A model generated the notes under the pieces. It saw only the letters and a program-made list of their open reading frames with translations. It was not told where the DNA came from and made no database searches. A stretch of DNA of 64,000 nucleotides from Telmatactis stephensoni (taxonomy: Eukaryota; Cnidaria; Anthozoa; Actiniaria; Isophelliidae): NCBI GenBank assembly GCA_029948255.1, contig JALIZF010001693.1:496001-560000 (forward strand). Reading direction: 5' to 3'. Positions 225 through 24,455 of the stretch are shown here, in pieces. A program made the position numbers and the translations under genes. Every line of letters begins with the position of its first letter. Position 1 is the stretch's first letter.

Positions 225-794
225 TTGACTCAGGTCTATGGGACTTGTGATATGCATAATTTTAATTTGAGCCTTATCTGGTCTCTGTCTGATTGTTTTA
301 GCCTGAATAAGTCATTACAATCCTTAACTCAAGCTTCCGTAGAAAAAGACCTGCAAAAGTTTATGGCATACGCGTCCCGTCCGCTGACGGAATTCAGAAA
401 CTACGAAGCTTTAGAGATGGTCGAAGCCTTGCAAAATGTCTCTCACGATATGAAACATGACAAGGAAACGTATTATCGTTTAGTATACCAGACTGCCAGA
501 TCAAAGGTGGAACTGCCGAATGAACACTTCCGAAGTCTGCTCCTTCGTCTTCTTGGAGATAAAGACCATGACCATGATACAGTAGTGAAAGTTGAAAAGA
601 ATTTTCGCCAGAAGAATCGATCCAGAGTAGATTGTGTGATGGGCCCTTCCACAGCCAGATCACCACGTACATCCCAGAATGTTGGTACATCACGCTGTTT
701 CTACTGCCAAAAGCCAGGCCATTTCAGGGCCAACTGCTATAGGAGAATGGCTGATATGAAATCAAAGGCTGAAAATTCCCCGTCGTCGAAATAA
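225..794 (+). CDS. Gag-like protein with CCHC zinc knuckle
   Basis: Open frame of about 189 codons with no ATG at its left edge. A pyrimidine tract ending in AG near 301 suggests the coding part may start there as an exon. The C-terminal part (residues about 158-171, nt 696-737) holds a C-x2-C-x4-H-x4-C zinc knuckle followed by a basic tail, the nucleic-acid-binding signature of retroelement Gag proteins. The middle is charged and helical-looking without a recognised domain. It lies 0.5 kb upstream of a degenerate DIRS-type polymerase on the same strand and is most simply that element's gag. It could instead belong to another element, since zinc knuckles are shared by several classes. Confidence 0.55.
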   Translation: MTQVYGTCDMHNFNLSLIWSLSDCFSLNKSLQSLTQASVEKDLQKFMAYASRPLTEFRNYEALEMVEALQNVSHDMKHDKETYYRLVYQTARSKVELPNEHFRSLLLRLLGDKDHDHDTVVKVEKNFRQKNRSRVDCVMGPSTARSPRTSQNVGTSRCFYCQKPGHFRANCYRRMADMKSKAENSPSSK

Positions 795-1308
795 ATGATG
801 ACGAAGTCATAGTAATTTTTTTGTTTTTTGCTGTTGTTAATTTAATTATCATGCACTTGAATATGTACTTGTTTTTGCCTACGTCCTTGAACAAATCTTG
901 GGTTACGCTTGATTATTCTTTTGTGTTGTTCCTTTTCTATTAAACAATAAGATATTTATGTCTACATATATCATACAAATGTAACTACTTTGTTTAGGTG
1001 TTTGAGAATAAAATTTGAAGTTGTTATGCTAAATGTTGTTCTTTTTGTGTGGCTATTTTCTCTGCTGAGTAATAATAAAATTAATAATAAAATAATAATT
1101 TGGGAGTCTCAGAGGTATAACAGCTCCGAAAATGGAATATCTAAATTAACCCTCCCGGTTTTACTGGGTCAGAGCTGTTATCTCTCTGCTGACAGAACGG
1201 GGCTCATTCAATCTCTACTTTCCTTCATTCTAGAAGAGACTATCTTGGTCTTGGGAAAGTGATCGAGCCTTTGACGCGGAGGTATCTTCAGCAATTCCAA
1301 AGAACAAA
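795..1308. other. Spacer between gag-like frame and pol remnant
   Basis: AT-rich sequence without a supportable gene. Two ORF-sized frames here show no domain and are probably chance. Confidence 0.4.
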
Positions 1309-3540
1309 GTGAGAAGGGTTGATGTTCATGGAAACCCCGTTCTTGTCAGCAGAGGGATAACAGCAAGTCCGAGTCTCGAGCAAACTTTGAGAAGGGTGGA
1401 ATGCGGGGAGGTCATCGGTAATATTGAAGATTTGATCTTCCGGGACCCCAGTTGTTATTGTTCCGGAGAACTTCATGAGCATGTGGTTTGCTGGGAGAAG
1501 ATTGCGTTAAGAAACCCGTCCAAAAGACACGTGGAGGTCCTTGATTGGCTCAGAAGTAAAGTTTCTATATTCCCTTTCTTTCAACACTTCAAGGGATCAT
1601 TTAAAGGGCAAAACTATGATTGTGACCGTCCTCCTTCCAGGGTGTTTCAAAACAATGCGTCGTGCAAATCATTTGTGGCCTTTATTCAACGTACCTTAAT
1701 TGATCGTTTAAAAACGGGTGCCATCTCTCTGGTGGGAAAAGTTGGTCTAGTGGAACGACCCTACCTTGTCCTTCGTCTCACAGTCGAACACACCAAACCA
1801 CGTTTATGTCATGACGCGCGTTATCTAAACCTCTGGATGCAAGATAAACTGTTCACGCTGGATAACGTGAAAGACCTGCCTCGTTACGTATCCAAAGATA
1901 GTTATCAAACGGTCTTAGACGACAAATCTGGTTACGACCATATCTTGCTAAGTGACGACAGCTGGACCTATTTTGATATTCAGTGGGGGGGCTGGTATTT
2001 CACCTGCAATACTTTGCCTTTTGGGTGGAAAATCTCCCCTATATTTACCATAGTACGGGACTCCTGGCTACAGATTTTTTCCACTCTGTTGGTGTCCCGT
2101 GTCTGTTATATATAGACGACAGGCATAATGGTCAGCTACAAGTCCCATTAGATCAAGGGGAATATGCGGTTTTACCTACAGAGGACCAGCGGAATTTCGC
2201 CGTAGCCAAGTCAACAATATTTTTGGTGGCTTACCATCTAGTACGTCTCGGCTACTTTCTTGGGCTCTCTAAGTCCATTTTAACGCCCAGGAAAGTTGTA
2301 CCGTATCTTGGCTTCCTGGTGGATTCATCCAACAAGGCGTTTCGTTTGATCCCTGAAAAGAAGCTGAAATTTCTTCAACTAATTCACCACACCTTAAAAG
2401 GTTGGTTTGTAAGCGTTAAAACCCTCCAGTGCCTAGTGGGTAAATGCGTGTCGTTCTCGGTGGTCGTCCCAGCGGCAAGGCTTTTCACCAAAGAGATGAA
2501 TCATGCCATCTCTCTCTGTAAACGCACCCAAAAACCAGTAGCTGTTCAAGGTCCACTTCGTGATGAAATCTCTCATTGGTTGTTCCTCGAAACTTGGGAC
2601 ACCCCACTTCCATGGCGTGACGAGTGTCACGTGCGCGTCACCATAGTGACAGACACTTAGGCGTCTGGCTGGGGTTACTCCATCATGACTGGTTCGGATC
2701 CACAACAGGTCTCTGATTACTGGTCTCCAGAGGAGCACACTTTGGATATTGCCACAAGGGAACCATTGCTATCGACTAGATGCTGTTGTGTTGTCGAGAT
2801 CAATTACAGAATGCTCGTGTCGATGTTCTTGTTGACAACCAAGCGGTTGTCCAATCTTGGAACCACCAGGGTGGGAGAAGTGGCTCACTGAACAAAGTTC
2901 TTAAACAGTTGTTCTACACCACTTCGAAGCTCATGCATGCAACATCCTGTTGCAGTTGTAGTATATCCCATCTAGTGAGAACCCAGCCAACCCTCCTTCT
3001 CGTCGCCTGTTGATGCTGGACTGTCAACTGACTCCTATAATGTGGCACACCGTCGAGCGTCTATTTGGAAAGTCAGCAGGCCACACATGCGATCTAATGG
3101 CTTTAGATTCTAATGCCATGAAAGAACAGAGAGGAAATCCACTACCCCATTTTACGTCACACCCTTTGCCTGGATCGTCTGGAGTAAATCTTTTCGCCCA
3201 GGACCTTACGCACCATAGGAATATTTTGCAGAGGCCTTATGTATTTCCCCCGTTGGTGATGGTTGGCCCGCTTCTATGTTTCCTTGAAAGTTATCGCCAA
3301 TCTTGCACTGTTGTTGTACTTGATACCTACCCCAGGAAATACTGGTGGCCACTCCTGCGACGCCAATCGTTGAAGTCATGCAAAATAGCCTCCAAAGGAG
3401 ACACCACAGCTCTCTTGTGCCCTCCAAGCGAGGTTGGGTACCCCATCCAGGCATCCCAGGAAACCTGTGGGCCTTCCATGTTGTGTTTTAGTCCAATGAA
3501 GCATTTGATGGACACTTTTTTGTTCTATTTAGTTCGATAA
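1309..3540 (+). pseudogene. DIRS-type RT-RNase H polyprotein, broken
   Basis: Frame 1309-2115 contains the RT fingers and palm: a KPRLCHDARYLNLWM segment, a DDKSGYDH motif and a TLPFGWK motif typical of YR retroelements. The frame shifts near 2100 and the polymerase box YIDD follows at 2109-2120 in another frame, continuing to a TAG at 2658 in the middle of the RNase H start (T-D-x-ASGWGY). RNase H-like residues (DNQAVVQSWNHQG) follow after a further shift. Frame 3010-3540 continues with the linker found between RNase H and recombinase in DIRS elements (IMWHTVERLFG, PYVFPPLV, WWPLL). I did not recognise a clear methyltransferase domain. At least four breaks show it is inactive. Confidence 0.75.
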
Positions 3541-3727
3541 TTGTAAACAGAACTCACATTAAGTACTCAGCAATGCTGCTGAAGGACAATTTTCACATAT
3601 ATAGGACTCACATTGCTCAATAATTCATGTAATAATGTATTTGATACTATTCAGCTTAATAAATATTAATGCGAATTTCATCCAACTTGTATTTCTATTA
3701 CATTCTTGGTGTCACTTGTTTCTCTAG

Positions 3728-5077
3728 GAACTGCCTGCCATCGCAAAGCTATTTGTCCCTTCCGTGAGGTGTCCTGTTTGTTCGCATGCAAACTATAGTG
3801 ATTTCCGGTTTTGTCAACGCTGTGGCTACAAAAGAAAAGTGATCCACGTGGAAAGAGGTCATGAAAGCGTGCACGTTGATATTGACCAGATCGACGAACG
3901 CTTGCGACAGTTACAAAACTTCGATCAGGCGACAAGTTATTCTAAACAGAAGGATTCCCTTCAAAAAGAATTTTCAGGTTTCCTAGATGCACTTCCAGGT
4001 CATGTAAGCCTGGCAACCGTGACACCACGCGATTTGTGCCGGTTTCTAGTCTTCAAAGATAAAACTGGCAAAACCCAGGTTCACCGAAATGGTTGTGCGC
4101 ATCTTGGCCAGCGAGGTCGATATACCTGTGGATGCCCCTTGAGGCTGTCCTACAAGACGGTGGATTCATATATCGGCAAGCTCCGGTCTATTTTCCATGC
4201 CATGGGGAGGGATGGTGAATGGGACCGACGTCTAGGGCTAGGCAACCCTGCAGCAGATAAGTCGGTTAAGGATTACCTCCATATTATAACAGCTGAACAG
4301 CTCCAAGCCCAAATAACCCCCAAACAGGCCACGCCCTTTTTTGTTGACAAACTGACGCAACTATCGTGTTATCTGTAAAGACAATTAGAGAATTGTAAAA
4401 CGCCTACCCAACGTTTTATCCTAGCCCGAGACCAGGCGTATTTTAAAATGGCATTTTTTAGTGGAGATCGTCCAGGGGACCTCGGTCAAATCAAAGTCCC
4501 TGGAATTCTTCGGTTCCCCGGCGACGACGGCTTGCTCTTCAACCACGTATGGGGTAAAACATTGAGGGATGGGGATGAAAACGTGTTTGGCCGAAACCCT
4601 CAGACCACCATTTGCCCCATTCGGGGTATTGAACGATACGTTGAGGTTGCTCGCCAGAAGAAGATTGACCTAACTCGCGGTTTTCTGTTTCGACCAACAA
4701 CGCCCAATGGAGGCATCCAAGACTTACCGCTGACTTCGTCTACTGCCGAAGCTCGTCTCTGAGTATATCTGAGAGATATGGGAGCAGATGACGGTGAAAC
4801 GTTGCATGGCTTTCGTTCTGGCTGTGCGATTACATTGGCGCTTAAGGGGGCTGAGCTATCTGAAATCATGGACCACGTTGGTTGGTCACGAAGACACACT
4901 GCTCTATATTATTTGCAATTAGCAAAGGTGCTTAATCCGCATGGTGCATCGGCTCGGCTTGCCTCCGAGAATGTGATGGAGGTGGCTAGCCCCTGGCAGG
5001 ATTTGAACGAACTTAAACGCTTTGTGTGTGCATTCCCTGCCGACAATCCGAATAAGAGACCCCATAAGGATTCATAA
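3728..5077 (+). pseudogene. Tyrosine recombinase with ALOG-like DNA-binding domain
   Basis: The frame opens after a TCTCTAG that could be a splice acceptor and is interrupted by TAA at 4376 and TGA at 4760. In the first frame, counted from nt 3764, a zinc ribbon (C-x2-C-x10-C-x2-C, residues 3-20) precedes residues about 59-172, which resemble the plant ALOG domain. That part includes DKTGKTQVH, an inserted zinc ribbon H107-x3-C111...C122-x-C124, then CPLRLSYKTVDSYIGKLR and a conserved NP-x7-DYL. The catalytic part follows in two more frames: Arg at 4469 (GDRPGD), H-x2-R at 4805-4816 (HGFR), H and W (DHVGW), and the Tyr nucleophile in ALYYLQL near 4907-4912. All key catalytic residues survive although the frame is broken. 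Confidence 0.75.
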
Positions 5078-5640
5078 TACTTAGTCACAAGCAATCCTTT
5101 AAATTAGGTGTGGGATTAGATTTGGGCAAAAGTGAGGATTGGGAGTTGATTTTTTGGGGGGGAAGACATATAGGGGACTTTGAGAAGTGTAAGAGTAGTA
5201 TTGTAAGATTATATAGTTAAAGTTGTAACTGATAGGTGAAGAGGCGCTGAATAATATTTCATCCCATTCCTTAATTCAATTGAGCATGAATGGGAGTGTT
5301 GTAGAATAGATTACTATTCCCATTTCTAGTAGTTTTGGTTATGCCCTCTCATTCTGAACAATAATGCCACTTCACCATGCATCGTCTTGATACATTCCAT
5401 AGTTATGCATTTAGAAGTGCGGGTTTCTTTGCAAGAATACAGAACCAAAGGTAATTGTTTTGGCAAAACACAGAGAAATATAATTTCCCACTTGAGTGTT
5501 TGATCAGTGTCTGAGTTCGCATGATTTTGAAAATGCGTTTATTGTAGGTGCAAATGTGAATGATCCACTTAATTTAGATCAGATTTATGAAATAAATATA
5601 TTCTTATTCCAACAAAAACGTCTTGCCAATAGTATTTTAA
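5078..5640. other. Intergenic, nothing recognised
   Basis: AT-rich sequence with a short G run near 5157. It separates the DIRS remnant from the Gypsy remnant. No repeat, RNA gene or ORF could be supported. Confidence 0.4.
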
Positions 5641-5651
5641 ATATTTAATCT

Positions 5652-7398
5652 TGACAAACGATCAGCCGAGGAGGTAAGAGGATCTTTTACGAAATTAGAA
5701 CATGCATTTGAAAACGTTGTTTCAAGACATGAGGAAGTCGCCAGGTTGATAGACAACGACGAACGTATCTCGAAAGTTTTAAGTACATTGCCTGCACAAC
5801 CATTAACTGGGGAGTGTAGTTCCTTTTCTGTTATCAGTAATGTATCGCAAAATGCCAATGCTAGTAAGGGCCACAGTGACTCAGAAATGAGTGGAATGAG
5901 AATACAACGATGGGGATTACGACTGCAACCATATAAACTATCTATAAAGTATCAGCCAGGAAACACTAATCCTAGCGATTATTTGTCACGTCATCCACCT
6001 TCAAACGGTGAGTCCAAAACACCACTACAGCAAACCGCAGCTGAACAATATATTAATTTCATTGCGCAAACATCAACACCAAGATCTATGACACTAGAGG
6101 AAATCAAAGAAGCCACAAGTAAGGACAAAACATTGCAACAAGTTATGAATTTTGTACGTACTTCACGATGGCATGACATGAAAATAATTACAGACACTGA
6201 TGTCGACTTAAAGGAACTTCATTCGTTCTACATTATACGTGATGAACTTACGTGCCATACTGACAACATTCTACTAAGGAACAATTTAATCGTCATACCA
6301 CGCACGTTGCGACAAAGAACCGTCGATATCGCACACGAGGGTCATCAAGGAATTAATCGCACAAAAGCATTTGTGAGATCCAAGATATGGTTTCCGGGAA
6401 TTAATGAAACTGTCGATAACACGGTTAAGAGTTGCATTGCATGTCAAGCCACTACATATAACAACACATCTCGAAAGGAACCTCTTCAAATGACAAACAT
6501 GCCTTCTAGAGCATGGGAATACTTAAGTGCTGACTTCTGTGGTCCACTCCCGACAGGAGAATACCTATTGACTGTGACTGATGAACACTCTAGGTATCCA
6601 GTTGTTAAAATCGTACGATCTACCTAAGCTAATACTGTTATCCCTGTACTTGACAAAATTCTAGCACAATTTGGATGTCCCAAAGAACTTAAAACTGACA
6701 ATGGACCACCATTCAACTCAATTAAATTTGCACAATATATGGGTCTTAAACATCGCAAGATTACACCCAGATGGCCCCAAGGGAATGGCCAAGTTGAAAC
6801 ATTTAACACCCAACTCATAAAAGCAATACGAACTGCACATGCTGAAGGAAAGCAATGGAAACAGGCTATGCACACATTCTTAAGACAATATCGCAGCACC
6901 CCACACTCAACAACAAAATACACTCCTCATCGACTTCTCTTCGGACGAGAACCAAGAACAAAACTCCCAGAATTGACAGCAACCAAGCCGGAATCAAGCA
7001 TCACTGCCCAAGCTAAGGTAAACGATGGCCTAGCAAAGTCCAAAGCTAAACAGTATGCAGACGCAAGTAACAAAGCTAAACACCGAGAATTTGAAATTGG
7101 AGAAAGAGTCCTAGTAAAGAATGAACAGAAAAGAAACAAGTTGTCTACACCCTACAAACCAGAGCCATTTTATGTCAAAGAGAAAAAAGGGAACATGATC
7201 ACAGCTTCATCAAATGGAAAGGACATCACAAGGAACTCATCATTCTTCAAAAGGCTGCACCAGAATGAAGTTAAGCAGGAAAAGGCGAGTGCAAGCAAAG
7301 GTGATACATCCAGCACTTTAACTGCAATACCTCCATCAAGCAGGCCTGTGAGACAAAGACGTCCACCAGCTTATCTGAAAGACTTTGTGAGATTTTAG
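5652..7398 (+). pseudogene. Ty3/Gypsy pol remnant (RNase H end and integrase)
   Basis: A single frame with one nonsense codon (TAA at 6625). After about 75 codons of unrecognised charged sequence, the end of RNase H appears at about 5905-6000 (RIQRWGLRLQPYKL, then NPSDYLSR). The integrase follows: an H-x3-H...C-x2-C zinc-binding domain at about 6334-6455, then a catalytic core with D in SADFCGP (near 6530), D in KTDNGPPF (near 6697) and E in NGQVETF (near 6794). A C-terminal basic region ends at 7398. Protease, RT and most of gag are absent, so the copy has a large internal deletion. The first 75 residues may be gag joined by that deletion. It ends 150 bp before an LTR. Confidence 0.8.
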
Positions 7399-17982: not shown

Positions 17983-18423
17983 TTTAGATATTGTAGCAGC
18001 TTGGTCAGTAATAATATTGGGCTTGACGGTGAATCTTTGTAAAGTAGCTTGTTTTTCTCACTTTTTCAGTGTCTTCTCTTCCAGTAATGAGATCAAAGAT
18101 GGCTAGAACGACATTCTTGGTTGCATGCATAACATCAGGAAAGGCTTGAGTAGTTCTGTCATGATCTGGTAGCAGCATTAAACTATAGCATGACTTAACA
18201 CCAGACCCACGGGCAATATTCTTTGCTTGAGTTGCATTCGGTGCATTTTCATAAGCAACAGAATCAAGCATGATGTCTGTAAACTCTTTCTTGGATGGGG
18301 GTTCTCTTTTTTCTATCATCTTGTCTGGAAAATGTTCTTGGTCTAGACGCATTTCAGAGTTTCTGGGCAAGTACCTCCTGTTCCCCAAATACACGGTCTT
18401 GTCAAGGGAATCTATATATGTAC
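17983..18423 (-). CDS. CACTA-1 transposase, post-core exon
   Basis: An AG acceptor before 18423 opens a frame with TVYLGNRRYLP and then FPDVMHATKN, both typical of the region after the DDE core. A one-base shift near 18050 separates this from a downstream frame (FTVKPNIITDQAATISK) that runs to a GT donor at about 17982. Confidence 0.7.
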
Positions 18424-18708
18424 CTGAAATTAGATTGAATTTAAAAATTATCACTTGTTGAAAGTTACTGTGGCTGTACGTGGCTGTCAACACGAAAGTT
18501 TAAACTATTTTGACAGCCACACATGCCTAAATTGAATCTATATATTTCATGTTCTTGATACTATTTTACTTATATAAATGAAACTTTCTTATTTAATAAT
18601 TCTGTAACCTTATTTTGAGTGTGAATAAACAAAAGTCAAAGTACTGTCTACTTTTGCCAGTTTTTTCTACTCTAAATTTTCAAAAGGAAATTCAATGCCA
18701 ATCTCAAA

Positions 18709-18858
18709 TTTTCCCCCTTTGGGTCCTCTCAAAGGGATTAATTGCCGGACTGACGCATTTCCGGTCCGGATCATGTTCACATAGTTATCACCAGATATTG
18801 CATACTCCATGTCATTTGCGTTCACTTCTGCTAGTACTTCGTCTTTCATAAGTCTTTC
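18709..18858 (+). repeat. Ngaro split repeat A1
   Basis: Direct repeat of about 150 bp shared with 22985-23137, starting TTTCCCCCTTTGGG and ending AAGTCTTTC. It lies just upstream of the gag start and probably holds the promoter. Confidence 0.85.
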
Positions 18859-18875
18859 TTAAGTCTACCTTCGTT

Positions 18876-19931
18876 ATGGGCCGTACTAGTCGATGTCCAG
18901 GATGCAAGCGAGTTAAGTCTTCTCATACGTTTGGTAGGCCAGGACCTGAGTGTTCCGGTCCTTCAGCTCGTCCTGAGTCCGAGAACGATGGGACGAACAA
19001 GGAATCAGACAACGCCTCCATAACTGACACTGCTTCGCTGGCAGCCATCTTGGACTCCGTTAAAACGTTAACGGCGGAGGTTAAGTCTATTCGTGAGGAG
19101 ACCTCGGAGTTACGGTCCTTGGTCCACCGTCAACCAGAGCAACCAACACACTCAACCTCTGGCGTCCAAAAACCTTCTACCACCGCCCAGGTTACTTTGC
19201 CTGAGCTTCGTGCGATGTCACAGCTAGCTTCGAAGGTGGATCAACGCGTGGCTCAACTCGATCTGGTTGGTTCGTCCTCCAGCGACTCTGATGCTGAAGT
19301 CGACACTGGTGCTACTCCTTCGAGGTCTGCAAAAGCTAAGAAGGGTAAGTTCAAATCCGGCAAGGATGCCAAGCCGACAAGCGATGTGGTTTCTCCTCAG
19401 TTTTGGCCACAGAGCTTTCTATCTTTGACACATGCACAACGTGACATCAAGTATGACGACCTCTCGCTGGCCGAGTTTGTTGCTGGCTATGCACAAATAT
19501 TACAGTCTGCTGATATCTCCAGTCTGGAGCGCACTGAACGGCTCAAGCATCTAGTTTGTCTTATGTATTTTGCTGCACAGTACGAGTGGTCCGCCGTGCT
19601 TACCTTCCACGGTGCCGTTTTGCTTGAGATTGAACGCGGTCTGCTCACGTGGGGGGATTCTTTCACCCATCTGGAAAGTCGCACACTATATGGCCATCTC
19701 TTGCGTGTGAAGCCCGCCTCCAAATCTACTTCGCCAGTATTATTTTGCCGTGACTTCCAACGCGACAAATGCTCTCATACTGGGGATCATTATGGTACGA
19801 TTCGGGGAGAATCAAAATGGCTCCGACATATCTGTGCAGCATGCTGGATATGTAGTCGCACACAGGAGACGCATCGCGAATCGTCCTCTGATTGTCCTCT
19901 GGCGTCGACTGCGTCGCCAGCAAAAAACTAG
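18876..19931 (+). CDS. Ngaro-like Gag protein
   Basis: 351 codons from an ATG 17 bp after A1. The N-terminus carries C-x2-C (RCPGCKRVKS), then a Ser/Glu-rich part with a predicted coiled coil near residues 50-85 (SLAAILDSVKTLTAEVKSI). The conserved central region (WPQSFLSLTHAQRDIKYDDL) and a C-terminal Cys/His cluster (FCRDFQRDKCSHTGDH, then HICAACWI) follow. These match Gag proteins of DIRS/Ngaro elements, which package the RNA. The stop at 19929 lies 40 bp inside the pol frame, which is in the -1 frame. Confidence 0.75.
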   Translation: MGRTSRCPGCKRVKSSHTFGRPGPECSGPSARPESENDGTNKESDNASITDTASLAAILDSVKTLTAEVKSIREETSELRSLVHRQPEQPTHSTSGVQKPSTTAQVTLPELRAMSQLASKVDQRVAQLDLVGSSSSDSDAEVDTGATPSRSAKAKKGKFKSGKDAKPTSDVVSPQFWPQSFLSLTHAQRDIKYDDLSLAEFVAGYAQILQSADISSLERTERLKHLVCLMYFAAQYEWSAVLTFHGAVLLEIERGLLTWGDSFTHLESRTLYGHLLRVKPASKSTSPVLFCRDFQRDKCSHTGDHYGTIRGESKWLRHICAACWICSRTQETHRESSSDCPLASTASPAKN

Positions 19932-21835
19932 CTTCTTGGAGCGCTTCCACCAGTAACAGTTCTACAGGGGGAGTTCCTGCGTTTACAACTCGTGACTCTA
20001 TAACTTACGCTAAAGATCGTGAATCTGTTTTACATGCCTTTTATTCTCAAGATCGTGACTCTGTTTTACATGACTTTTATTCTCAAGATTGTGACTCTGT
20101 TTTACATGACCCAAATTCTCCGTATCCGGGTAGTGGGAACGTTAATTCAATTCTTGACAGTGCTTCATATCAACAATTCTTCGTTCAAGCTCATCGTACC
20201 GTTCGTGCTAGTGGATTACCGAATTTTTCGGGTGTTCGTTTGTCAGTACCCTCAGGATTACACATCGAGGTTTGGCGGAAATTGTTACGGGACTATCATG
20301 ACAATGTCATTTGTGACTATTTGCAGTATGGTTGGCCGGTGGGTTATGACAACAGGACACTTCCGGTCTTTGATCAGCGTAATCATCGTGGCGCCATTAA
20401 CTTTCCTACCGCGGTTTCGTCGTATTTAAACAGCGAGATCTCTCGGGGACAGATCGCCGGTCCGTTTGACTGTGTTCCTTTTCCCGACGGTTTTGTGGTC
20501 TCGCCTCTGAATACAGTCGAGAAGCGTGATTCGTCCGAGCGGCGGGTGATCGTCGATCTCAGTTGGCCATGTGGACGATCAGTCAATGATAGCATCGCTA
20601 AGGACTCGTATCTTGGTGATCATCTGGACATCACTTATCCTACTGTAGACTTAATTGTGGAAGCGATTATCGGTTACGGTCCTGGTTGTTTGTTGTTTAA
20701 ACGTGACTTAAGGAAGGCCTATCGGCAGTTTCCTATTGACCCCCATGACTATCATCTACTAGGCTATTTTTGGCACGACAAGTTTTATTTTGACACTGTC
20801 CTTACGATGGTTTTACGTTCGGCCGCGATGGCCTGTCAGCGATCGACGTCGGCGGTTTCATGGATTTTTCAACAACAAGGACGGACATTATTTAATTATT
20901 TAGATGACTTTATCGGTGTTGCTCCACCGACAATTGCTCATCAGCAGTTTCTTGACGTGGAATTGCTATTATGCTCCTTAGGTTTAGAAGAGTCTGGTAA
21001 CAAAGCATGTTCTCCGTCAACAGTAATGACCTGCCTGGGTATTGATATTGACACGGTTGCCTTTACTTTATCTGTTCCTCCATCTCGATTGTCCGAACTT
21101 GGTACGTTACTCCAGGTCTGGTTGAACCGGAAATCCGCTACTAAATCTGCCTTGCAATCCCTCGTTGGTAAACTGGTTTTTGTCTCCCGCTGCGTTCGTC
21201 AAAGTCGCGTGTTGATTTCTCGTATTCTGGATCTCTTACGTTCAGTCAAATTCCCGCATCACTACGTTCATCTTAATGCTGAGTTCCGAAAGGACATTCA
21301 TTGGTGGTGTCGATTTTTAAAGGTCTACAACGGGGTTTCATTGATCAACACTTCTCATTGGTCTTCGCCCGGTGAGATATTCACAACAGATGCTTGTCTC
21401 ACTGGTTGTGGTGGTATTTGTAACGATCAGTATTTTCACGCGGTGTTTCCCGAATTCATCGTCGCTCGATGCCTCGACATAAATTGCCTGGAATTATTGA
21501 CTATTGTAGTGGCTCTCAAGTTGTGGGGGCAGCGTTGGTCCGGTCTTAGATTGACAGTGCGCTGTGACAACGAAGTGGCGGTCACTGTGTTGAATTCTGG
21601 TCGATGCAAAAACCAGTACCTGAACACGTGTCTTCGGGAGATTTGCTTTCTTGCTGCGACCTTTGCCTTTGAAATTCGGGCCGTTCACCTTCCCGGCAAG
21701 CAAAACGAGGCCGCCGACTTGCTGTCACGTTGGGACTCCACTACTACAGAACGTTTTATAAACAACAGCAACCATCAACGCTTGCGTGACGTTCCTTTAC
21801 CTTTGTCTTACTTTGAGTTGGACGGTGTTTTATAA
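19892..21835 (+). CDS. Ngaro-like reverse transcriptase-RNase H
   Basis: Open for 647 codons. After a linker with three copies of a DSVLHDFYSQD-type 11-residue repeat (20023-20115), the RT spans about residues 130-420. It has KRDLRKAYRQFPI, the catalytic YLDD at 20897-20908, and LGIDIDT. RNase H follows with Asp in FTTDACLTG, Glu in CLELLT, Asp in RCDNEVAV and Asp in AADLLSR, so all four acidic positions are present. It overlaps gag by 40 bp in the -1 frame with no internal ATG near the overlap, so -1 frameshifting or a fused product is likely. Its stop TAA overlaps the next ATG (TAATG). Confidence 0.85.
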   Translation: MSSGVDCVASKKLASWSASTSNSSTGGVPAFTTRDSITYAKDRESVLHAFYSQDRDSVLHDFYSQDCDSVLHDPNSPYPGSGNVNSILDSASYQQFFVQAHRTVRASGLPNFSGVRLSVPSGLHIEVWRKLLRDYHDNVICDYLQYGWPVGYDNRTLPVFDQRNHRGAINFPTAVSSYLNSEISRGQIAGPFDCVPFPDGFVVSPLNTVEKRDSSERRVIVDLSWPCGRSVNDSIAKDSYLGDHLDITYPTVDLIVEAIIGYGPGCLLFKRDLRKAYRQFPIDPHDYHLLGYFWHDKFYFDTVLTMVLRSAAMACQRSTSAVSWIFQQQGRTLFNYLDDFIGVAPPTIAHQQFLDVELLLCSLGLEESGNKACSPSTVMTCLGIDIDTVAFTLSVPPSRLSELGTLLQVWLNRKSATKSALQSLVGKLVFVSRCVRQSRVLISRILDLLRSVKFPHHYVHLNAEFRKDIHWWCRFLKVYNGVSLINTSHWSSPGEIFTTDACLTGCGGICNDQYFHAVFPEFIVARCLDINCLELLTIVVALKLWGQRWSGLRLTVRCDNEVAVTVLNSGRCKNQYLNTCLREICFLAATFAFEIRAVHLPGKQNEAADLLSRWDSTTTERFINNSNHQRLRDVPLPLSYFELDGVL

Positions 21836-22857
21836 TGCAACATTTTTATTATTTCATAGTTACTCAAGAACTGCATTCCCTTCGTCGCGAGCTAAAGAAC
21901 AGTCTTCGCTCAGCCTATAGTAAAGGGACTTTTAGTAATCTTCGTACACAATTTTCAGCCTTTTTGTTATTTTGTTCTTATTTTAACTTTAAGCCGCTTC
22001 CCGCTGAGTTAGATACTGTTTGTCTATACGTACAATTTTTAAGTCGTACACTGTCTCCTCCTTCCATCAGAAATTATCTCAATGGGGTTAAATTATTTCA
22101 TTTGTTTTCAGGGGTCGATTATTCCTTGCGTCGAGACTTTGTTATTTCGTTAGCACTGCGAGGGATTGCGCGTGTTTCACGACACGTGCCATCTCGAGCC
22201 CCGCCGGTCACACCAGATATCTTGTTATCAGTGTCTCGACATCTGGACATTCTGCATGACCCCGTCGATTGTACTTTATATTGTTCTTATTTGTTTTGTT
22301 TTTTCCCCATGGCCCGGTTAGCCAATATCGTCTCATCAAAATCCAGTTTTGATCCTTCCCGAGATCTCACCCGAGGAGACGTGGTTTTTAGTGATCAAGG
22401 TTTATTAGTCACGTTTAAACATACTAAAACTATTCAGTTCGGTGAGCGCCGACTGAACATACCATTACTTAGCATGCCCGGTTCATCGCTATGTCCAGTC
22501 GCGGCCTACAAGCGCATGGTTCGCCTAGTCCCAGCGGGTGACCGACACCCTTTGTTCCTCCTCCCTAGTAGTTCAGGGCTTCGCCATTTATCCAAAGAGT
22601 ATTTCATCGCTGAGTTCCGTCGTTGTTTACTGCGTTCGGGCGTCCGGGACGCCAGTCGATTTAGGGGTCATTCCTTCCGTCGGGGTGCCGCTTCGTGGGC
22701 CTTTAGGATCGGAGTCCCGGGCGAACTTATTCAATTGTATGGCGACTGGTCGAGTGATGCTTACAAAGTATATTTAGAGTTTAGTCTCGAGTCAAAGCTC
22801 ACGCTCGCGCATAAGTTTCGTCAATCTCTTGCTGGTTGTTCCGTCAGTGACGCTTAA
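21835..22857 (+). CDS. Ngaro-like tyrosine recombinase
   Basis: 340 codons starting in the TAATG overlap with pol, suggesting termination-reinitiation. The N-terminal core-binding half includes SIRNYLNGVKLFH. The catalytic half has Arg161 (PMARLANIV), Lys195 (TFKHTKT), His279-x2-Arg282 (GHSFRRGAASW), Trp305 (YGDWSS) and Tyr310 or Tyr313 (DAYKVYLEF), so a complete active site. The enzyme would integrate the circular element DNA. The frame shows no breaks and could be functional. Confidence 0.85.
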   Translation: MQHFYYFIVTQELHSLRRELKNSLRSAYSKGTFSNLRTQFSAFLLFCSYFNFKPLPAELDTVCLYVQFLSRTLSPPSIRNYLNGVKLFHLFSGVDYSLRRDFVISLALRGIARVSRHVPSRAPPVTPDILLSVSRHLDILHDPVDCTLYCSYLFCFFPMARLANIVSSKSSFDPSRDLTRGDVVFSDQGLLVTFKHTKTIQFGERRLNIPLLSMPGSSLCPVAAYKRMVRLVPAGDRHPLFLLPSSSGLRHLSKEYFIAEFRRCLLRSGVRDASRFRGHSFRRGAASWAFRIGVPGELIQLYGDWSSDAYKVYLEFSLESKLTLAHKFRQSLAGCSVSDA

Positions 22858-22877
22858 TTGTTTTGGCCGGGTTCTTG

Positions 22878-23328
22878 GGTGCCTGAGAGGTTTATTCTGT
22901 GTTTGTTAGTATTTTTATTCCTACCTAATAAACTTCTCACTTCGGCCAAAAACCCTGTAAGCGTCATTGATGGGTCACCCAGGGAATTTTCCCCCTTTGG
23001 GTCCTCTCAAAGGGATTAATTGCCGGACTGACGCATTTCCGGTCCAGATCATGTTCACATAGTTATCACCAGATATTGCATACTCCATGTCATTTGCGTT
23101 CACTTCTGCTAGTACATCGTCTTTCATAAGTCTTTCCCCCCCCGCCCAGCCCTAGCTACTTATCTATTTTTGCTATTGTATTGTTAGTAGTATATATTCT
23201 AGCCTTGCACCCTTAAGGTGCCTGAGAGGTTTATTCTGTGTTTGTTAGTATTTTTATTCCTACCTAATAAACTTCTCACTTCGGCCAAAAACCCTGTAAG
23301 CGTCATTGATGGGTCACCCAGGGAATTT
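22878..23328 (+). repeat. Ngaro split repeats B1-A2-B2
   Basis: B1 (22878-22989) and B2 (23217-23328) are 112-bp copies beginning GGTGCCTGAGAGG and ending CAGGGAATTT. A2 (22985-23137) starts overlapping the end of B1. AATAAA within B (CTAATAAACTT) may serve polyadenylation. Confidence 0.85.
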
Positions 23329-23777
23329 GAAAAGAAATTGGGGAATCTTATGCTATTTTTTTGTGATAATCAGCATTTTCTCACAGCCTATTCGTTTCAT
23401 GGGTAAAAATATCATCATATCAAGTTATACGTAAGAAACTCTGTAACTCAAAAAATAGGATGTGGCAACAAATATAGTCATAAATATTAGGAGAATGCTA
23501 TGATGAACTGCTCATTTAAACAGATGTTACAGCCATTTCAAAATGGTTGAATACTGTTTTTTAAAAATTGTATTCTAAGGGTAAAGTGATCATTTTCATA
23601 ATTAATTTGAATGGAAAGTAATTTGCTCTATACATGCCATTTGTTTATTCTTGCTTGTATGCAGATAGGTTCACTAGAATTAAGACAAATTATACTTATT
23701 ATTCAGTATTCAAAGATTTTTAAAATAGCTGTATGTATGCATGGTTCTTTTGGAAATATTTAACTGCATTAACTAAC
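23329..23777. other. CACTA-1 intron remainder
   Basis: AT-rich sequence between the Ngaro right edge and the DDE-core exon. Nothing else is seen. Confidence 0.5.
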
Positions 23778-24455
23778 CTTCAATTTCACACCACATGCAT
23801 GCTTGAATTGCATTTGCCCCAAACGCAGAAAACAACTTGTTCAGTCCAGGGTAGTCTAACACATGGTTAAGAATCATGACTTTGAATGTAAATGACTCCT
23901 TCAGGAAACCATCATAAAACTGAACACCAGAAAGCTCACACAGCTCATCCACAAGAATCTCCAAATATGCATCTAGCTTAAGAGCACAGTCACCCTGTTG
24001 ACCTGGGATAATACCAACCAACATAATACTGGTAAACAAATGCCTAACTTTCTTGGGAAGGTTTAACATTGTAATTGTCAAAGGCCACATGGAATAAGTG
24101 CCTTGACTGAACGGATTCATTCCATCTGTGGAGAACTGTAATGCAAGTTCTCGTGGATCTCCACATAACTTGCCAGTGTTCTCATATGCGTCAAGGAACT
24201 GAGGAGAATCATGGATGTCCCCCATTACATTACTACATTCCTGGCCAGTAGAAGGCATTTTGTGGCTTTGTAGTATTTGAGAAACGGTCGCATCACCATA
24301 CATGCGTTTCCAGCGTGGCCCAACTGGGTAGTAGTGAAAGCGGTTTCTTGTTTGTTTGGTCTTTCCGAAACATCTAGGACTGCCGCACTCCGGGCACTTT
24401 GTTAATTTACTGTAATTGAAACGAGGGCAATCTCTGAACACCACACAGTGATTTG
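23778..24455 (-). CDS. CACTA-1 transposase, DDE core exon
   Basis: Contains a C-x2-C zinc pair (KCPECGSPRC), then ALQFSTDGMNPF with the first catalytic Asp (codon 24126-24124), TYSMWPLTITMLNLP, IPGQQGDCALKLDAYLEILV, a GVQFYDG motif, and the second Asp candidate in LNHVLDYPG. It closes with ACMWCE. These are the family signatures of Transposase_21. The exon ends at a GT donor at 23777, 450 bp from the right edge of the Ngaro insertion. Confidence 0.85.

Follow-up and report, generated by a model that had tools for sequence, protein, structure and literature searches.

How does a DNA-binding domain that plants use in stand-alone regulators come to lie in an open reading frame of a sea anemone, and what would it do there? 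We analysed a window of 64,000 nucleotides from Telmatactis stephensoni (contig JALIZF010001693.1, positions 496,001 to 560,000 of the forward strand; positions below are those of the window), and found that the ALOG domain in it is real. Pfam PF04852 (ALOG) matches residues 66–186 of the frame at 3728–4375 with E = 6.8e-23 and 81.6 bits (cut-off 26.6), and the single window sequence is sufficient to match the solved plant protein LSH3 (8p5q; E = 8.2e-9). The profile search thereby bears out a preliminary description of the locus, whose domain limits of 3938–4279 stand, with the Pfam match slightly longer; the start at 3764 named there falls inside the same frame, which opens at 3728. The motifs it quoted are all present in this one + strand frame, which carries CPVC at 3770, CQRC at 3812, SYSKQK at 3935, GKTQVH at 4067, HRNGC at 4082 and CGC at 4127. 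The last two supply the H-x3-C and C-x-C ligands of the zinc ribbon inserted in ALOG domains, with the histidine and three cysteines in register with those of LSH3. An N-terminal CxxC-CxxC ribbon can be seen in the sequence, its Pfam matches being sub-threshold (best DZR, 21.2 bits; cut-off 27.3). The ALOG family search returned matches in none of 14 control genomes.

The domain belongs to a recombinase. Its order is ribbon, ALOG and a Cre-like catalytic domain, with Gag and reverse transcriptase (RT)-RNase H upstream (Table 1), and all four signatures of tyrosine recombinases lie in the window frame, though downstream of stops: the Arg (of GDR, 4469–4471), H-x-x-R (HGFR, 4805), H-x-G-W (HVGW, 4874) and the Tyr (4910–4912). 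These parts score low in profile searches: RVT_1 reaches 22.4 bits on 1309–2112 (cut-off 29.6) and Phage_integrase 19.5 bits on 4763–5077 (cut-off 27.1), while the catalytic piece 4379–4759 has no Pfam match. Pfam likewise offered no family for the Pol C-terminal domain, and its label of methylase-like is borrowed from the accessible portion of PMC3537659. The window copy is dead; it cannot make a whole recombinase.

Table 1. Parts of the ALOG element in the window and the basis on which each was placed
Feature	Position	Strand	Basis
Gag remnant with CCHC knuckle (CFYC...GHFRANC from 696)	303..746	+	tblastn with Gag frames of five same-genome families, E 5.8e-16 to 5.8e-7
RT-RNase H remnant over three frames, YIDD at 2109	1234..2929	+	tblastn with Pol frames of five families
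Pol C-terminal domain, putatively methylase-like, at the position of that domain in DIRS	2935..3459	+	tblastn with Pol of five families
Splice-acceptor-like tract and AG before the putative recombinase exon	3713..3727	+	12/15 pyrimidines, AG at 3726-3727, position as in relatives
N-terminal CxxC-x10-CxxC zinc ribbon	3770..3823	+	sequence; DZR sub-threshold
ALOG domain	3923..4285	+	Pfam PF04852; LSH3 8p5q
Zinc ribbon inserted in ALOG, HRNGC ... CGC	4082..4135	+	ligands align with LSH3
In-frame TAA truncating the recombinase	4376..4378	+	sequence
Recombinase catalytic part, TGA at 4760, natural stop at 5075	4379..5077	+	motifs; relatives match Cre
B terminal repeat, the 3′ end of the window copy	5245..5319	+	100% to B2 of L051 over 5245-5316; alignment stops at 5319

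Because the frame 3728–4375 is open across ribbon and ALOG while the remainder is broken, and the closest protein matches listed include many short ALOG frames, the locus might instead be read as a host gene for a domesticated solo ALOG regulator. We rejected this reading, which is very improbable: the rest of the recombinase continues in frame behind the stop at 4376, decayed Gag and Pol lie upstream, and the kin of the locus are dispersed copies. The nearest of these, on contigs C497 and C890, are 95% alike to the window over 4120–5100; the C497 copy (record L051) also matches 1940–3641 and is without 3642–4119, the first part of the recombinase exon and so the start of the ALOG exon, and the limits of the C890 match suggest the same loss.

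The window holds other elements as well. A further retrotransposon has left pieces of its integrase at 5746–7398, soon after the ALOG element (Integrase_H2C2 at 52.6 bits and a weak rve_3 match). At 18707–23328 lies a second tyrosine-recombinase retrotransposon, Ngaro-like by look (no methylase was seen), with open frames of 351, 647 and 340 amino acids, no ALOG match in Pfam, and split direct repeats of its own (A1 18707–18858 = A2 22985–23136, 99%; B1 22878–22989 = B2 23217–23328, 100%). It seems to have inserted into a tnp2-type transposase, two pieces of which flank it on the − strand (18008–18493 and 23776–24444, matching Transposase_21 profile positions 162–207, below cut-off, and 8–153).

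Better-preserved relatives of the ALOG element are abundant in the same genome. A profile search over 483.5 Mb in 1782 contigs gave at least 150 ALOG loci, a lower bound from 150 scored matches of 185 candidates, all above the cut-off; by hand count, 69 of the 150 matches lie in an open frame of at least 400 amino acids with no stop within the match. Fourteen loci share an identical score and a frame length of 440 amino acids. Six of these were examined and proved to be copies of one family with a body identity of 99.6–99.9%; Gag (168 codons), Pol (728) and recombinase (440) are open in all six, no similarity was found among their 400-bp flanks, and no target duplication was found within 12 bases on each side. 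These copies look recently inserted and may be active. At other loci (for example C362:365510, C832:143663 and C1073:95515) the second half of ALOG alone is present (profile 56–124), in frames of about 100–150 amino acids; these are perhaps amplified deletion derivatives, comparable to the C497 copy. Beyond this genome, protein matches in Porites, Acropora, Actinostola, Desmophyllum and Branchiostoma appear among the best 120 of 409 and the best 120 of 4535. One of the proteins, P0162, an Acropora cervicornis ALOG protein, bears the name ‘Protein LIGHT-DEPENDENT SHORT HYPOCOTYLS 6’ and is probably an element fragment called after the plant gene.

The relatives make the architecture legible where the window copy is worn. 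RVT_1 scores above its cut-off in all four intact Pol frames tested, with RNase H below cut-off in two of the four and the Gag knuckle below it in both frames tested. We combined 14 recombinases into a single profile and compared it with PDB sequences: it matches LSH3 over 127 positions (E = 1.2e-21) and, further along, Cre (E = 8.5e-7), which indicates homology of the catalytic domain with that of Cre; the catalytic Arg, H-x-x-R, H-x-G-W and Tyr are invariant or nearly so across the 14. Pfam finds both ALOG and Phage_integrase in 14 of the 14, which, having been picked for length and a clear frame, do not amount to a survey. The recombinase frame of family 46 (L046, 6467–7723) has no N-terminal ribbon, so the ribbon may be dispensable.

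Plants and elements share the ALOG domain, together with its inserted zinc ribbon; they differ in that the plant proteins are solo regulators without a catalytic domain, whereas here the domain is part of a retroelement’s recombinase. We placed both in a tree of 71 rows, 68 from elements and three from plants (angiosperms; no algal rows), over 131 columns, which is few for that number of rows; the searches that supplied the element rows skewed them towards the window. All three plant rows group on a single branch, 2.0 changes per column long, separate from every one of the 68 element rows. So long a branch might suggest that the likeness arose by convergence between a zinc-bearing recombinase domain and the plant domain, which we regard as the least credible reading of all given the extended profile match to LSH3, in which the H-x3-C and C-x-C ligands fall in register. 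The rows nearest the plants are P0146, family 42 and P0150; a special closeness of the window’s clade to plants finds no support in this tree. The element can be called an animal-side relative of the source of plant ALOG, as had been proposed, in a broad sense, but its own clade is not the nearest one.

We wondered to which class of retrotransposon these recombinases belong, and used self-comparison of the relatives to locate their ends. A repeat A1 opens the element on the 5′ side; towards its 3′ end, a repeat B1 joins A2, followed by a spacer and then B2. Full split direct repeats of this kind are present in families A (L036, L037, L041), C (L044, L045), 46 (L046), 42 (L042) and 50 (L050); in families B (L033–L035), 47, 48 and 49 self-comparison detected A1 = A2 and no B pair, in L043 it found neither pair, and in L051–L054 the B pair is present. 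The window copy retains one B and also A1, which lies at C253:493734, before the window starts (positions −2266 to −2103 match); relative to L051, A2 and B2 are missing. Inverted termini of the DIRS1 type were rejected, no inverted pair linking both ends having been found in the examined copies. According to the accessible part of PMC4157794, split direct repeats are what defines PAT elements in the DIRS group, and the placement of the repeats fits the echinoderm form of PAT described there. From its relatives’ split direct repeats the element is therefore PAT-type, not DIRS1-type; the earlier label of an ALOG domain in a DIRS-type tyrosine recombinase is right in that the retrotransposon belongs to the DIRS order and goes astray if DIRS1-like inverted repeats are understood by it. 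With the echinoderm-form Pat1-like elements it shares split direct repeats, a B1-A2 junction just upstream of the 3′ repeat and a zinc-knuckle Gag; the accessible description of Pat1-like elements (PMC4157794) does not mention ALOG, whereas the elements here carry it.

A1 and A2 are 100% identical in three B copies and in families 46 (over 193 bp), 49 and 50, and 94.8–99.2% identical in the remaining families (family A, 97.5–98.9%). The published model, as laid out in the accessible part of PMC6681497, expects near identity at insertion, so that divergence between A1 and A2 counts against either a very recent insertion or a strict use of the model; the family A copies are nearly identical to each other despite it.

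The B1-A2 junction drew our attention as a candidate site of recombination. ACTAT occurs no more than 12 bases from the B1-A2 boundary at all 13 junctions, which are not independent, 47/48, 42/49/50 and 53/54 being close kin. With 16-bp arms around a 6-bp spacer, the matched positions number 15 in family A, 12 in C, 13 in 46, 11 in 52, 14 in 53 and 15 in 54, and an equal palindrome occurs elsewhere in the record at 0 of 9320 positions (A, C, 46) or 0 of 920 (52, 53, 54; the L052–L054 junctions were added after the pattern had been noticed). The palindrome is weak, with 7–9 of 16 positions matched, in B, 47, 48, 42, 49 and 50, a level that between 90 and 851 of 9320 positions attain; in L051, the window’s kin, it is 7 of 16 at spacer 6 (447 of 4320 positions) and 11 of 16 at spacer 7. 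As a control, the second tyrosine-recombinase element of the window reached no more than 11 of 16 close to its junction with any spacer from 3 to 12. The inner arms approximate GAATA and TATTC in most junctions, and the arm sequences vary between families. The dif site has inverted arms around a 6-bp spacer, and the junctions recall this dif of Xer recombinases; against Cre and Xer, the recombinases here serve a retroelement life cycle and their arms differ between families. From its sequence, the B1-A2 junction looks like the core site of the recombinase, at which a circle would close and crossover would occur.

A second regularity concerns how the frames begin. In nine families, eight of nine Gag frames and eight of nine Pol frames open directly after TAG with 9–13 of 14 pyrimidines, and none of the 18 starts with ATG; since 16 of 18 follow splice-acceptor-like sequence, we infer that expression may be spliced. 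Seven of nine recombinase frames follow TAG, and four of these (A, C, 47, 49) combine a good tract with the conserved start; the recombinase frames of B, 42, 50 and 43 contain a good acceptor at that start. In A, B, 42, 49 and 50 a leader frame with ATG, 40–109 codons long, ends at an in-phase GT that lies about 290–440 nt from A1, and in C and 47 such a frame ends at weaker donors, outside the six best scored; family 46 has no leader frame listed and no clear recombinase acceptor or donor. By uncalibrated score rank, the leader donor is the top-scored site in A, 42, 49 and 50 (4/10) and third in B; in the window, a similar donor ranks fourth and is without an in-phase ATG. Several families have a tandem array between leader and Gag (in A, 1033–2083 of L036). 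We rejected the idea that an intron bridges the end of Pol and the recombinase, the gap between Pol stop and acceptor being just 23–26 nt in A, 42, 49 and 50. No leader-exon splicing in DIRS-order elements was recognised in the accessible parts of the literature searched, and PMC3266345 makes no mention of introns or splicing.

Both regularities, the palindromes and the pyrimidine-TAG starts, might be side effects, of transcript-end hairpins or AT-rich spacers, for example, with ALOG binding elsewhere and the frames expressed from one RNA by frameshift or re-initiation. Indeed, the junction is near the element’s 3′ end, seven of the 13 palindromes are weak, and TAG before frames is common: among 374 other frames of at least 60 amino acids, TAG precedes 94, and in 43 cases the TAG comes with a tract of at least 8 pyrimidines in 14. 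The excess of such starts among Gag and Pol frames tells against this reading, as does the coincidence of the palindrome with a junction that was located by repeats, and the lack of any equal position in six records, three of which (L052–L054) were fetched once the pattern was known. We consider it unlikely, though clearly less so than a host gene or convergence.

We conclude that the feature in all probability belongs to a PAT-like retrotransposon, now decayed, as the core-binding ALOG domain of its tyrosine recombinase, an explanation in which we include insertion of a circle and splicing. A DNA circle would be made from the element’s RNA and, once closed, its junction would restore a site that reads roughly GAATA-N6-TATTC, with further arms outside it. 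Each arm would hold one recombinase protomer, whose catalytic domain would lie on the inner part while ALOG and its ribbon would lie on the outer part; crossover within the spacer would insert the circle without target duplication. To make the mRNAs for Gag, Pol and recombinase, a leader exon that carries the ATG would be spliced to one of three exons that have no leading ATG. Against this explanation we count the seven weak junctions, the missing repeat pairs (L043; B, 47, 48 and 49), the A1/A2 divergence of family A, the unnamed methylase-like domain, the sub-threshold catalytic pieces of the window, the weak donors of C and 47, and family 46 with neither a clear acceptor nor a clear donor.

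Part of this was known. Iyer and Aravind in 2012 described ALOG-containing DIRS1-class retroposons and proposed them as the source of plant ALOG (PMC3537659, accessible text), as the preliminary description correctly stated. Since the architecture was published there, ribbon included (the Ectocarpus recombinase has an N-terminal FCS-type zinc ribbon, ALOG and a catalytic domain), the core claim is not new; the N-terminal ribbon, previously described as extra, is so relative to plant proteins but had already been reported. Their elements and ours have in common a knuckle Gag, RT-RNase H, a methylase-like domain (putative in ours), a ribbon-ALOG-catalytic recombinase and broken metazoan copies, and two of their hosts, Nematostella and Lottia, are also those from which Pat1-like elements are reported in the accessible text of PMC4157794. 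In the same portion of PMC3537659, all metazoan copies known to the authors are called inactive, in contrast to the many open frames here, and for some Nematostella remnants a domesticated solo ALOG is suggested as possible; the Ectocarpus element has terminal direct repeats of 159 bp, whereas we find split direct repeats and a candidate core site, and that portion describes no splicing, whereas a splice layout is proposed here. Four things go further than that text: PAT-type ends, a candidate junction site, open copies that are nearly identical to one another, and a proposed splice layout. None of them was recognised in the accessible parts of the literature searched.

If the junction is the core site, its outer arms are where ALOG would bind, and one word recurs in them. 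CAYTG lies at arm positions 7–11 from the spacer in both arms of A, 46, 53 and 54 (8/8 arms), on the right arm at 11–15 in 47, 48, 42, 49 and 50, and on the left arm at 15–19 in 42, 49 and 50; it is absent from the junction arms of B, C, 51 and 52. Its rate is 0.0022 per position, a statistic that is post hoc, the word having been noticed by eye and chosen before counting. One family 46 arm reads CACTGTA, which fits YACTGTW, the motif that Rieu is said to have given in 2024 for LSH proteins. The plant ALOG motif was not found in the literature searched, including the accessible parts of PMC12675423, PMC12457153, PMC12030751 and PMC13252624. That plant ALOG regulators kept the half-site preference of an ancestral recombinase is thus a tentative idea, suggested by these words and rather doubtful, yet directly testable, since uninterrupted near-identical copies with recognisable junctions provide a natural DNA substrate for recombinases of the kind proposed as the origin of plant ALOG proteins.

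The link between ALOG and animal retroelements has so far rested on copies called inactive, according to the accessible text of PMC3537659. The splice layout, if borne out by RNA, would be an unusual route by which a retrotransposon obtains separate Gag, Pol and recombinase. And if the inherited preference is true, the ALOG domain that plants domesticated would to this day recognise what was once, in an ancient recombination site, the outer arm.
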